Shown here: positions 18,357-35,174 of the stretch, piece after piece
Numbering within the stretch: position 1 is the first letter of the stretch
Layout of the letters: every line of letters begins with the position of its first letter
NCBI GenBank assembly: GCA_038889235.1
Contig: JAWAHN010000001.1
Coordinates: forward strand, 530,499-594,498
Source of the DNA: Candidatus Jordarchaeales archaeon
Lineage (GTDB): Archaea > Asgardarchaeota > Jordiarchaeia > Jordiarchaeales > Freyrarchaeaceae
DNA: 64,000 bases
Direction: 5' to 3'
Program-made: the position numbers and the translations under genes
The notes under the pieces: generated by a model
The model's input: only the letters and a program-made list of their open reading frames with translations
The model's database searches: none
What the model was told of the DNA's origin: nothing

Positions 18357-19603
18357 CTACCACCGCCTCTCCTTCTCATTGAACTCCCTGCTATACTTTC
18401 GGAGTTCCTCCATTGACCAGACCCAGGAGTGTTCTTTCTCGACGTCCACGAACACTAACCTGTCCTCACATGAGAAGCATGGGTCAATTGACGCTAACGC
18501 CACAGGGATGTCTGCGATGTAGCAGCCTTTTAAGAGCTCTGCGACTGAGAGTATGTTCGCCATGGTCGGCGTCCTAATCTTGACCCTGTAAGGTTTATCG
18601 GTGCCATTGCTCTTCACATAGTAAACTAGCTCACCTCTCTGGGCTTCAAACCTAGAGAAGGCTTCACCCTCAGCCACACGCCGGATGAGCTTCTCGGGCA
18701 TGATGTTCCCGTCTTTAGGCATATGGTCGAGGCACCATCGGATGATCTTAATGCTTTCGAGTGTTTCGAGCACGCGCACAACAGCCCTACCGAAAGAGTC
18801 GCAAGAGTCCCACGTTACAACGTTAAACTCTGCCTCATCGTATTTCAAGTGCGGATCGTCTTTACGTACATCTCGCTCAACCCCAGCTGCACGAATGGTA
18901 GGGCCAACGGCTCCCAACTTTACGCCAGTCACAGGATCGAGAATGCCTACATCTTCAGTCCTCTTCCTGATAGTAGTCTCTTCAAGACACAATTTCTCGT
19001 AGTATTTCGTCCTCTCTTCGAGGTAGTCGAGACCTTTCCTGATTTTGTCAGCGAGCTCAGGAGTTATGTCCCTTCTAACACCGCCGATGATATTCATAGC
19101 ATAGTTGACCCTATTACCTGAAATAGCCTCAAGCAGATCCATAACAACTTCTCTATCACGCCACACGTACATGAACAGTGTCTCAAAACCAATTTCTAAT
19201 CCTAGAGCGCCAAGCCACAGCAGGTGGCTGTGGATACGCTCAAGCTCGCTCACTATGGTCCTGATAAACTTAGCTTTCTCACTAACCTCTATTCCGCCAG
19301 CCTCTTCAACAGCCAGCGAAAAGCAAGTCGTATTCGCGCTCCCCAAGGCGACGGGCACACATAGAACTTACGACATTTGCCTTAGAGGAGTTGCGCGTTC
19401 GAACATATACCGCAAACCCTTTCTACCAAGAATATTCCTTGTATGTAGGTCCTGTTTTCCAGCGCCTTTTCTATCCCCCTGTGAACATACCCGATCCTAG
19501 GTTTCACGTCTACGACTGTTTCTCCCTCAACAAATATCTGGAACAGTTCAGGCTCGTGTAGAGCAGGGTGTTGTGGGCCAATGGGTACTATTACGGGTGC
19601 CGT
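18357..19603 (-). CDS. Group-4-type [NiFe] hydrogenase large subunit, interrupted by a 59-nt insert
   Basis: The protein has both nickel-binding CxxC motifs: ERVCGICSNA near residue 65 and SIDPCFSCEDR near the C-terminus. Complex I subunit D lacks these, so this is a hydrogenase-type catalytic subunit. The N-terminal 70 codons (from about 19603, with PIGPQHPALHEPE and GYVHRGIEKALENRTY) and the last 325 codons (from 19334, NTTCFSLAVEEAGG) are in different frames. Removing 19335-19393 joins SNA to NTTC exactly as expected and gives 395 residues, a normal length. No ATG, GTG or TTG exists at the start; ATT 19609 or ACG 19603 follow GGGAGGTG. Alternatives: intron, recoding, pseudogene or assembly error. 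Confidence 0.75.
19335..19393 (-). other. 59-nt structured insert in the hydrogenase large-subunit gene
   Basis: The insert is bounded by a direct repeat CGCG (19335-19338 and 19394-19397). On the transcript its ends pair: CTCC with GGAG and AAGGC with GCCTT, with CGCG/CGCG as outer helix and a 3-nt CAA bulge at the 5' border. This recalls the bulge-helix-bulge splice sites of archaeal introns, but the second bulge is not clean. It contains an in-frame TAA. Excision by exact repeat or by the near-BHB cut positions both restore the frame. Confidence 0.55.
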
Positions 19604-20350
19604 TTTAATGCACCTCCCTTCTATATCTTGTTTTCACGTCTTTTGTTTTGTTTATAAAATGTTTTCGCCTTGTTTCTATAGAAAAGTCTTCGAACGTCAA
19701 CACGTTTTAAGTTTCCAACAGCGCTCTCTACGGCTTACTACCGTGACGAAGCTGCCTAAGGTCTACTATTTTTACCACTCACCTTTTCCTAACAGTTCTT
19801 AGTGCTACAGGCAGGTGCACTATTTCCTTCCGTTATCATTTGATTGCGCATTCATGTAGTGCATTCACACCACATAGCGAATTTAGGAGTATGAGCGCCG
19901 GCTTAATTCCATGTACGCTGAAGTTGGAGACTAGGGATTTCAATAAAGGGCTGGAAACCTTGTGAAAGAGTTAACGTCCGTGACCACGAGAAAGACTAAT
20001 AAAGCCGGTGGACGTCAGATCTTGATTAACTGTGCCGAACAGCGTCGAAGTTCAGCACTCGTGGGGACACGCATGGTGTCTCTTAAAAACAGGATTTTGG
20101 TTTTGAAAAGTGCAAGTTGTGTGAAGCGTCTTTATTGTTAAAAACCCCTTTTTTAATGTACTGCGTTTTAGTTAAGATTCAATAAGTTAGGATGCTATAA
20201 AAGTAAAGGGCAGAGTAGTGTTATTTTTTCTCAGGCTGTTGAAAAAGGGGGAGGGGTAGTGTTCTGCAGGGATGCCAGGGGGGCTTTTGGGAGGGAAGAA
20301 TTTATGTTTTTCTGACAGGGAGGGGGTCAGCTAGTGCTGTAGGATGGTTT
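19604..20350. other. 747-bp gap inside the hydrogenase cluster, no intact gene
   Basis: Between the large-subunit start and the C-subunit gene no frame of useful length has a ribosome site. A short plus-strand stretch near 19930 (RDFNKGLETL, then a stop) weakly recalls the end of TnpB-type transposases, so the gap may be a decayed insertion sequence. AT-rich tracts at 20140-20190 and a G-rich run at 20240-20300 are present. Confidence 0.4.
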
Positions 20351-22693: not shown

Positions 22694-23729
22694 ATGACTA
22701 AGGTTGTAAAGCTTCACGGTTGAGCTTGTAAGCTCCCGCAGGCAGATTTGAAGAAGCTTCTAGAGAAGGCGGGGGTCACAACTCCGAGCAACATTCTAAG
22801 TGGGCCCGACGAGGATGCAGCCGTTATACGTGTCCGGGATGACATGGTGCTCGTGAAAACGATAGACTTCGTTACGCCGAGCGTCGACGAGGGATATGTT
22901 CAGGGGAAGATTGCAGCCGCTAACGCGACAAGCGACGTGTACAACACAGCCACGAGGCGGGCTGTGTGCATAAGCGAAGGGTGCAACCGAGATAGTTGGC
23001 TTCTTGGCGGTCTTAGGCGTGCCCACAGACATGCCTGTGGAAATAGCAGTAGATATTCTTCGGGGGATCAAAGACTACTTAAGTGAGGTCGGAGGGGCAT
23101 TGGTTGGCGGGCACACGATATTTAACCCGTGGCCGCTGTCTGGGGGCGAAGTTACTGCTATAGCCCATCCAAGTCAGATAGTCTACCAGAGAGGTGCTAG
23201 GGCCGGGGATGTGTTGGTTCTCACAAAGCCACTGGGGACCCAGCCGGCAATGGCTGTCTATAGAAGTGTGAAGGAGCCGGAGACGCGCGAACTAGTGCTA
23301 AGCGTGCTTTCAGAGAAAGAGGCGGAGGAATTAGTTAGGAAGGCGATAGGATTCATGACGCAGTCAAACAAACCTGTTGCTGAAGCTATGAGGGAGGTTA
23401 AGCCTAATGCTGCAACCGACGTAACAGGGTTTGGGCTTGTGGGACATGCTGGAAACATGGCTAGGGAGAGCGGGGTTGACGTGGAGATACAATTTTTACC
23501 AGTTATGAGGGGTGCTGTTCAAGTCTCAGAGCTCTTTGGCTACGGGTTAGAAAGAGGGGAAGCTGCGGAGACCTCTGGTGGAATCTTGGCGTCGCTGCCT
23601 AAGGAGAAAGTTGACGAGTTCCTGGGCGAGTTGAAAAAACGCGGAGTTACAGCTTACATCGTTGGTGAGATTAAGCGCGGCGAGGGGAAAGTTACTGTGA
23701 AGCGTGACGTCGAAATGATCGAGGTGTAG
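22694..23729 (+). CDS. selD: Selenophosphate synthetase with in-frame TGA and a frame disruption
   Basis: Makes selenophosphate from selenide and ATP. The product has the N-terminal active-site segment VKLHG-(TGA)-ACKLPQADL, then GPDEDAAVI, NATSDVY, GALVGGHTI, TKPLGTQPAM and TDVTGFGLVGHA, all family hallmarks. TGA 22721-22723 sits exactly where SelD enzymes have catalytic Cys or Sec. ATG 22694 is used; in-frame GTG 22673 is an alternative. Between SDVY (22940) and EIVGFLAVLGV (about 22990) the frame shifts by +1, with about 25 extra nucleotides around a perfect hairpin. Without that stretch the protein is about 336 residues, normal length. It is either recoded, spliced or a pseudogene. Confidence 0.8.
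22721..22723 (+). other. TGA at the Sec/Cys position of SelD
   Basis: The codon is followed by GCT TGT AAG CTC, giving G-U-A-C-K-L-P, the same context as the selenocysteine in methanococcal SelD. A random nonsense mutation exactly here is unlikely, so a selenocysteine codon, active or ancestral, is the simplest reading. Sec tRNA and SelB-type genes are not in this window. Confidence 0.6.
22944..22967 (+). repeat. Perfect 8-bp hairpin at the selD frame break
   Basis: ACACAGCC (22944-22951) and GGCTGTGT (22960-22967) form an 8-bp stem with an 8-nt loop exactly where the two reading frames of selD must be joined. It lies within the roughly 25-nt stretch that has no counterpart in the protein family. 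Confidence 0.6.
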
Positions 23730-33141: not shown

Positions 33142-34068
33142 ATGCTCGTAGACCGCTTTGGGCGACAGGTCAGCAACCTTAGGATTTCTCTTACCCAGAA
33201 ATGCAATCTGGCATGTTTTTACTGTCACCATGAGGGAGAGGGGTGTAGTGGTGGACTGCGCGAACAAGACAGCATGACGCCAGACGAGGTGGCGTTCATA
33301 GTTGGAGCTGCAGCGGAGCTGGGTGTGCGGAGCGTTAAATTGACGGGGGGAGAGCCTCTTCTGTACGATGGGGTTGAGGAAGTTGTCAGGAAGATATCAT
33401 CAGTTAAGGGTGTAGTTGACGTATCAATGACTACCAACGGCGTGCTTTTATCTGAGTGGGCTGAGAGGTTAGCTAGAGCTGGGCTGAGTAGGGTTAATGT
33501 GAGCTTAGACACTCTTTCAAGGGAAAAATACAAGATGATAACGGGGAGAGACGACTTCGAGAAGGTTATAGAAGGAATAGATGCGGCCCTCGATGTAGGT
33601 TTAACTCCAGTTAAGCTGAATATGGTTCTACTGAAGGGGGTCAACGTGTCAGAGTTGGAGTCGATGATCGAGTTTGTGAGGGGGAGAGAAGGGTGTGTGC
33701 TGCAGGTTATAGAGCTTGTCCCTAGAATCCCGGCGCTCGAAAAATACCACATTAGCCCATTATTTGTTGAAGAGATGCTTGAACGGAGGGCGGTTAGAGT
33801 CGTCGTAAGGGGGATGCATAGAAGGAAAAAATTCTTCTTAGAAGGAGGGGGGGAGGTTGAAGTAGTCAGGCCCGTTCACAACAGCGAGTTTTGCGCTAAC
33901 TGCAATAGGTTGAGAGTTACAAGCGACGGGAAGCTGAAGCCTTGCCTGATGCGCAACGATAACTTGGTCGACGTTCTCACCCCTATAAGAAGGGGAGCTT
34001 CGAAGGAGGAAGTTAAACGGCTCTTGCTTGAAGCCGTGAGCAGGCGCACCCCCTACTACCGTTGCTAG
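33142..34068 (+). CDS. moaA: GTP 3',8-cyclase (MoaA), molybdenum cofactor synthesis
   Basis: A 308-residue radical SAM enzyme. The SAM cluster motif CNLACFYC is at residues 22-29 and the second C-terminal cluster is bound by CANCNRLRVTSDGKLKPCL. It makes the cyclic pterin precursor from GTP with MoaC. MoaA serves tungsten as well as molybdenum enzymes, and an FdhD-like protein is encoded at 1.6 kb. ATG 33142 follows GAGGGGA. Its last codons overlap the convergent iron-sulfur oxidoreductase gene. Confidence 0.95.
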   Translation: MLVDRFGRQVSNLRISLTQKCNLACFYCHHEGEGCSGGLREQDSMTPDEVAFIVGAAAELGVRSVKLTGGEPLLYDGVEEVVRKISSVKGVVDVSMTTNGVLLSEWAERLARAGLSRVNVSLDTLSREKYKMITGRDDFEKVIEGIDAALDVGLTPVKLNMVLLKGVNVSELESMIEFVRGREGCVLQVIELVPRIPALEKYHISPLFVEEMLERRAVRVVVRGMHRRKKFFLEGGGEVEVVRPVHNSEFCANCNRLRVTSDGKLKPCLMRNDNLVDVLTPIRRGASKEEVKRLLLEAVSRRTPYYRC

Positions 34069-35021
34069 AAGAGTTCGATTATGTCTGCAACCTTTATATC
34101 CGCCTTCTTTCTTCTAGCACTACCCTCTAGCATTAGCTCACACATCGGACAAGAGGTTATAACTAGACTTGCACCGGTGGTTAAGGCTTCTTCCAGCCTC
34201 CTATCAGCGATCTTGGCGGCAAGTCCAGGGTGCGATAGCGGTACCCCACCTCCACCGCCGCAGCAAAGGGTTTTCAGCTTATTGTGTTTCATTTCAACTA
34301 GGATCGCGCCCGCGGCGTTCCCAATTATTGAGCGTGGCTCGTCGACTATCCTCGAATACCTGGCGAGGTGGCATGGATCATGAAATGTCACATATGCACT
34401 TAGCCTGCGTGGGGACAACTTTCCAGTTTCAACGCTTCTCGCAAGAACCTGTGTTATGTGTTCTACCTCAAAGTCAAAATCGAAAAACTTCGGGTACTCT
34501 TTCGAGAGGGTTTCGTGGCATCCTGGGCAAGGTGTTATAATGCGCTTTACCCCAGCTTCCCTAAGTCTCTTAATGACTAACTTACCGTAATCAATGAACT
34601 TTTCCACTTGCCCCGAAACGAGGAGTATGTTCCCACAGCAGGGTTCATCTGGCCCAAGCCACCCTACGTTTCCAAGCCTCGAAACTACTTCCCCCATTTT
34701 GGCCACTCTTTCTGGGAAGTACTGGGCGTAACTACAGCCAACAAAGAGTATAGTTTCACCGCCTTTCGGGAGTGCAACAGACTTGCGGAGGAGCTTTGAG
34801 TAAGGGTTGCCGAAGCTAAGCACCATGTCCGCCGCTTTCTTGTGTTCTGGGTCTAAGTAGCCTAGGCGCACCAGTTCCGACCTGAGAGCAATGATGACGT
34901 CGACGGTTTGTAGGGCACATCTATACATGCAGTAACCGCACGTAGTGCAAGCTGTAGCGGACTTCAGAAGGCTTTCACTAGGCCTGATGACACCTTCGAT
35001 GAGCCCCCTAGCAGCTAGCAT
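34065..35021 (-). CDS. CCG-domain iron-sulfur oxidoreductase (HdrD/GlcF-like), N-terminally truncated
   Basis: The 318-residue product contains one ferredoxin motif, CTTCGYCMYRC (near residue 28), and two CCG repeats: DEPCCGNILL with FVGCSY before it and TLCCGGGGG with DPCHLARY before it. These bind a noncubane or linked cluster as in heterodisulfide reductase and glycolate oxidase iron-sulfur subunits. It accepts electrons from the adjacent FAD-linked oxidase. ATG 35021 is the first usable start here, but in-frame coding sequence extends upstream beyond a TAA (see the next entry). Confidence 0.88.
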   Translation of the reverse strand: MLAARGLIEGVIRPSESLLKSATACTTCGYCMYRCALQTVDVIIALRSELVRLGYLDPEHKKAADMVLSFGNPYSKLLRKSVALPKGGETILFVGCSYAQYFPERVAKMGEVVSRLGNVGWLGPDEPCCGNILLVSGQVEKFIDYGKLVIKRLREAGVKRIITPCPGCHETLSKEYPKFFDFDFEVEHITQVLARSVETGKLSPRRLSAYVTFHDPCHLARYSRIVDEPRSIIGNAAGAILVEMKHNKLKTLCCGGGGGVPLSHPGLAAKIADRRLEEALTTGASLVITSCPMCELMLEGSARRKKADIKVADIIELF

Positions 35022-35174
35022 CTTCCCCCTACTAGAATAGGGCTCTAACCTTAGCTCTTTAAAGAAGGGGCACTCTTCAACGCAGTGGCCGCCACTTTGG
35101 GTTTAGAAGTGGCTGTAGCCGCACCTCGTCCTGTTACAAGTGTAAATGTCTGGGATGTATTTCTCAAGGTGCAA
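35022..35174 (-). pseudogene. Upstream first ferredoxin domain of the CCG protein, broken by in-frame TAA
   Basis: In the same frame as the CCG protein, TTG 35174 opens a stretch reading LHLEKYIPDIYTCNRTRCGY, then SHF, a TAA at 35103-35105, and TQSGGHCVEECPFFKELRLEPYSSRGKMLAARGL (given in short parts: HCVEECPFFKEL, EPYSSRGKMLAARGL), which runs into the annotated start. EPYSxRGKM followed by ARGLxEG is a family hallmark, so the original N-terminus carried a first 4Fe-4S motif of C-x4-C plus C-x3-CP form. TTG 35174 has GAGGTG upstream, overlapping the FAD-gene stop. Confidence 0.6.

Follow-up and report, generated by a model that had tools for sequence, protein, structure and literature searches.

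A probable bulge-helix-bulge pre-mRNA intron in a [NiFe]-hydrogenase gene of a Jordarchaeia archaeon, and similar introns in other protein genes of its order

The gene for the large subunit of a group 4 [NiFe]-hydrogenase, located on the minus strand of the 64,000-nucleotide stretch of DNA analyzed here (the window), is interrupted by 59 nt that, judging from sequence comparison, very probably constitute a functional archaeal bulge-helix-bulge (BHB) pre-mRNA intron. At least six further protein genes of the same Asgard group were found to contain similar BHB introns (16-124 nt). The nearest relatives of the large-subunit gene were those of Candidatus Jordarchaeum/Jordarchaeia genomes (83-85% protein identity), which places the host, by this gene, among the Asgard archaea of the class Jordarchaeia (Candidatus Jordarchaeum), named Freyarchaeia in passages of PMC11291895. 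The source genome amounted to 2.14 Mb in 8 contigs, and was compared with three Jordarchaeum relatives of the same genus (including G003), with G007 from another family of the same order, and with G012, an Asgard genome outside the order Jordarchaeales.

The large subunit was MbhL/NuoD-like and retained the CxxC and DPCxxC motifs; its best solved relative was the alpha subunit of a membrane-bound hydrogenase (6cfw, from Pyrococcus furiosus). In the minus-strand frame, a TAA stop occurred within a few codons after ERVCGICSNA, and the C-terminal 333-aa ORF was in another frame than the N-terminal part. Alignment at the DNA level revealed 59 nt more than in the three Jordarchaeum relatives, all uninterrupted at this site, and tblastn, which is blind to structure, returned the same 59 extra nt with G003 and with the more distant G007. 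The initial annotation, in which the two halves of the gene were read in different frames around a 59-nt insert, was therefore borne out by the ORFs and by both comparisons, and its question of whether the insert was lineage-specific was answered by the three same-genus genomes, which lacked it. The features of the gene are as follows.

19392..19603, minus strand: exon 1 of the large-subunit gene, beginning at ACG where relatives have ATG
19394..19397, minus strand: 5' strand of the 4-bp central helix (CGCG), in exon 1
19391..19393, minus strand: 5' bulge CA^A, predicted cut (^) between 19392 and 19391
19333..19391, minus strand: putative BHB intron of 59 nt, absent from three same-genus relatives, fitting the core, and restoring the frame and the conserved His
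19335..19338, minus strand: 3' strand of the central helix (CGCG), at the intron end
19332..19334, minus strand: 3' bulge AA^U, predicted cut between 19333 and 19332
18357..19332, minus strand: exon 2 of the large-subunit gene, containing the DPCxxC motif

Because of the 4-nt CGCG direct repeat at the flanks, which had already been pointed out, several equivalent excisions yield SNA-N-TTC. The excision proposed initially (19335-19393) was of the correct length, but its position was two bases away from the preferred cut, and its junction, SNA-NTTC, puts Asn where the relatives and 6cfw have a conserved His. When the cut was moved by two bases (19391-19333), SNA-H-TTC and the fit to the BHB core were obtained together; the restored His is that of RxCGxCxxxH, and corresponds in the alignment to the one in the Pyrococcus MBH large subunit (6cfw). 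The spliced large subunit consisted of 395 aa, equal in length to those of the three relatives, and the NuoD-family score increased from 298 bits for the C-terminal part to 377 bits (curated cut-off, 360).

The 5' strand of an archaeal BHB consists, in order, of the outer helix, the 4-bp central helix, the bulge XX^X, and the inner helix; the 3' strand begins with the inner helix and continues through the central helix and the bulge XX^X to the outer helix. Relaxed forms without one of the flanking helices are known substrates of (αβ)2 enzymes. The core of the hydrogenase insert was a canonical 3-4-3, with CGCG/CGCG as the central helix and CA^A and AA^U as the bulges, and excises exactly 59 nt when cut between the second and third bulge residues, as described for the BHB (PMC2738675). 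The inner helix was present (CUCC(U)CUAAGGC/GCCUUGGGGAG), and the outer (exon-side) helix was essentially missing, which corresponds to the relaxed type. The chance of such a core was 6.6e-4 (random coding sites, at the given length and with a freedom of ±4 nt). On the other hand, the minimum free energy fold shifted the helix by one base relative to the BHB register, and the whole-fold energy was ordinary against shuffles (z = -0.87); the insert has been seen in a single genome and offers no covariation of its own. The near-BHB structure proposed initially was thus right in kind, although the core is canonical rather than near, while the reading of CAA as a lone bulge with a 47-nt excision was in the wrong register. 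The guess of a tiny mRNA intron was itself a good one in kind, with a stronger case than was first made for it, being supported by the BHB core, the restoration of His, and the conserved introns in selD, gatE, and hypD (see below). A group I or II intron was rejected: no match was found in an Rfam search of the window, and 16-124 nt is too short.

Two tRNA_int_endo proteins were found in the window genome (C1:1056473 and C3:444309). Both Pfam domains were detected in one of them and in the G003 relative of the other, and, in the translations, one protein possessed the Tyr-His-Lys set and the other had no His; by these features, both subunits of an (αβ)2-type splicing endonuclease are encoded. 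This type has been linked to mRNA introns and relaxed motifs (PMC2738675). RtcB was intact (C1:704115). In the transcript, exon 1 beside the 5' splice site would pair over 4 bp with the intron end, and this helix would be flanked on either side by a 3-nt bulge; the two-subunit endonuclease would then cut each bulge between the second and third nucleotides, RtcB would ligate the exons, and translation of the spliced mRNA would yield the full-length large subunit. The RtcB gene of G007 (C7:53202-54539) had one internal in-frame TGA, possibly selenocysteine or a sequencing error. ARAGORN found two tRNA genes in ~800 kb of the window genome, which fits heavily interrupted tRNA genes; introns in 92-95% of the tRNA genes of Atabeyarchaeia and Freyarchaeia genomes are given in passages of PMC11291895.

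The same gene carried a different insert in one relative, L032 (JNZ_1113): an additional 50 nt close to the 5' end. They formed a complete hBHBh', with an outer helix of GGCU/AGCC and beyond, a central helix of UUGC/GCAA, and an inner helix of 9 bp; the bulges were AC^A and AA^G, and the cuts matched the comparative borders (chance of the fit, 7e-5). This insert is independent of the 59-nt insert, and is a fully canonical BHB.

The scan of other protein genes covered 864 kb of the window genome together with 1.14 Mb from G003 and 400 kb from G007, and targeted searches were then added. Two of the interrupted genes were in the window.

22694..23729, plus strand: selD (selenophosphate synthetase), two exons; the TGA in frame at 22721-22723 is interpreted as a likely selenocysteine codon
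22943..22973, plus strand: BHB intron of 31 nt in selD with a covarying helix, conserved throughout Jordarchaeales
34065..35174, minus strand: HdrD/GlpC-like Fe-S gene in two exons; the limits are estimates based on the translated spliced sequence, with a TTG start assumed
35085..35114, minus strand: BHB intron of 30 nt in the HdrD/GlpC-like gene, between CGY and CVEECP

The selD intron, between DVY and A.G, had a length of 31, 34, or 30 nt within the genus and of 30 nt in G004-G007, and was present in all seven members of the order having the N-terminal part; no insert was found at this site in the other Asgard sequences read there. In its helix, 100% of the pairs were kept and 7 of 12 were changed on both sides (15-66% paired in slid controls). 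The TGA of selD (HG*ACKLPQ) was kept in the relatives read, and probably encodes selenocysteine. The gatE intron, between DE and TPPF (29-35 nt), was found in 8 of 8 genomes of the order, and its helix was 96.9% paired, both partners having changed in 7 of the 12 pairs (12-53% paired in slid controls); in the window species itself, the central helix of gatE contained a single A-C mismatch. The hypD intron lies between HVCGT and HEQ. Its length was 16-17 nt within the genus and ~28 nt in members of the other family, two out of four of which passed a strict BHB test. A 24-nt BHB-like insert with an in-frame TGA and one failing central pair was located at the same site of hypD in G012, by which the position may be older than the order. 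A pattern search for this interruption, blind to the variant of G004-G007, found it in 5 of 228 Asgard genomes: four Jordarchaeum and G012. The HdrD-like intron measured 30, 28, and 27 nt within the genus; no insert was found at its site in G004-G007 or other Asgard; an apparently uninterrupted gene in G002, so judged from open-frame length alone, had a 28-nt intron when its sequence was read. The leuD-like intron, between IIPG and K, was 29 and 27 nt, the ferredoxin gene of G003 contained an intron of 124 nt, and an uncharacterized LIMLP_15305-like gene was interrupted by introns of 28 nt in G003 and 31 nt in G007. Two 3-nt bulges and a 4-bp helix also occurred in the selD, gatE, hypD, leuD-like, HdrD-like, and ferredoxin introns.

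These introns are considered to be untranslated because their lengths differed between orthologs by non-multiples of three (16/17/28, 30/31/34, and 27/28/30) with the flanking peptide conserved, in-frame stops were found in the multiple-of-three introns that were read (selD, gatE, HdrD-like, and leuD-like of G003), and their helices covaried. Our confidence in functional introns is higher for selD, gatE, and hypD than for the 59 nt of the hydrogenase gene. Since the covarying introns of selD and gatE and the intron of hypD were conserved order-wide, such introns are a regular feature of the lineage. Most were in genes related to metals, selenium, or Fe-S, and the sites were often within the most conserved motifs (CxxCxxxH, HVCGTHE, CxxCGxC, and NTDYIIPG). 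No G007-specific intron was found in the 400-kb stretch of G007. Other tblastn gap events were judged to be antisense, intergenic, or 3n protein indels, and chance matches in the ortholog scan, with equal lengths in both species, were dropped. A BHB scan combined with an ORF-join score recovered the correct introns; controls with the wrong geometry, however, yielded equally many hits (mostly at gene-gene junctions), and structure-only counts were therefore not taken as evidence.

A recent disabling mutation in a decaying hydrogenase gene would account for the species-specificity of the insert, the 4-nt direct repeat at its flanks, and the change of the start ATG to ACG. Nevertheless, no further frame break was found across 1.2 kb, both exons were under strong purifying selection (dN of 0.05-0.11 with near-saturated dS against the relatives), the adjacent subunit genes were intact, and the BHB core coincided with the motif-restoring cut (P = 6.6e-4); moreover, BHB introns elsewhere in the lineage's genes are conserved, and hence cannot be decay. 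We regard decay as unlikely. An assembly or sequencing error would be conceivable for a species with one draft genome in 8 contigs, but the 59-nt sequence was found nowhere else in the genome or in seven relatives of the order, and is therefore not a mis-joined copy, while analogous BHB inserts were present in independent assemblies of other species; such an error is very improbable.

Explanations at the level of translation fare slightly worse still. Programmed hopping, as in T4 gene 60, by which the ribosome would bypass the insert with take-off and landing on GCG, draws on the in-frame GCG before and at the end of the insert and on the hairpin between them; the hop, however, would replace the conserved His by Asn, matched codons were absent from the sister introns located between codons (selD, TAC/TAA; HdrD-like, TAC/CAC; gatE, GAA/TAA), and the BHB geometry is common to the sister introns, so that we give this possibility very little credence. 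A similarly slight chance attaches to two separate polypeptides that assemble, a 73-aa N-terminal one ending at TAA and a 333-aa one starting from GTG (19358). Both ORFs are open, and there is a precedent in methanogen hydrogenases, in which the large subunit is naturally split (VhuU). The break, however, separates Cys from His inside the nickel-binding loop, the GTG was not preceded by any visible ribosome-binding site, and the BHB fit and sister introns would be left unexplained. An intron removed from the pre-mRNA thus remains our preferred explanation of the 59 nt.

As for the upstream region, the first codon at position 19603 (minus strand) was ACG, and ATG in the three relatives and G007; GGAGG, a good ribosome-binding sequence, was at the usual distance from it, and no in-frame ATG, GTG, or TTG was found nearby. 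Approximately 700 nt without an evident gene (19620-20350) separated the genes for the 30-kDa and large subunits and contained a TATA-like TTTATAAA; this gap appeared to be much shorter in the relatives.

The mechanism is the known archaeal one, and the spread over many protein genes looks new within the open-access literature searched, where no report of BHB introns in Asgard protein genes was found (most subscription papers and preprints are outside it). We are mildly inclined to think that Jordarchaeales, along with one or more further Asgard lineages, maintain a standing, partly ancient, and still turning-over set of protein-gene BHB introns, perhaps tens per genome and preferentially in metal- or selenium-related enzymes, with mRNA splicing by the tRNA machinery as a routine process. 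Several conserved introns in the core metabolism genes of one Asgard order would make such splicing routine there, in contrast to the one gene (cbf5) in which archaeal mRNA introns have so far been confirmed; some Asgard genes would be wrongly annotated as broken, and the gain and loss of protein-gene introns would be traceable in close relatives of eukaryotes.

The closest known system is cbf5, the gene for which an mRNA intron has been described in archaea (PMC2738675, PMC7714728). Its pre-mRNA intron in Crenarchaeota (Watanabe 2002; Yokobori 2009, PMC2738675) is similarly recognized as a BHB, cut between the second and third bulge residues by a hetero-oligomeric endonuclease, and located at the codon of an essential residue. 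The introns of Jordarchaeales differ in the genes and phylum (Asgard) concerned, in their occurrence in several genes per genome, and in the very small size of most of them (16-59 nt). The tRNA BHB introns of Freyarchaeia/Jordarchaeia and Atabeyarchaeia belong to the same lineage, and the same enzymes are expected for them; those in the passages of PMC11291895 are in tRNA genes only, whereas ours are in protein genes. The BHB of Haloferax HVO_1309, added in PMC7714728, also indicates that the splicing endonuclease acts on mRNA, but is in the 5' UTR and is not a frame-restoring intron. The bypass elements of T4 gene 60 and yeast mitochondria share with the present inserts a short untranslated stretch, containing a hairpin, within a coding sequence; they are skipped at translation between matched take-off and landing codons, which the sister inserts do not have.
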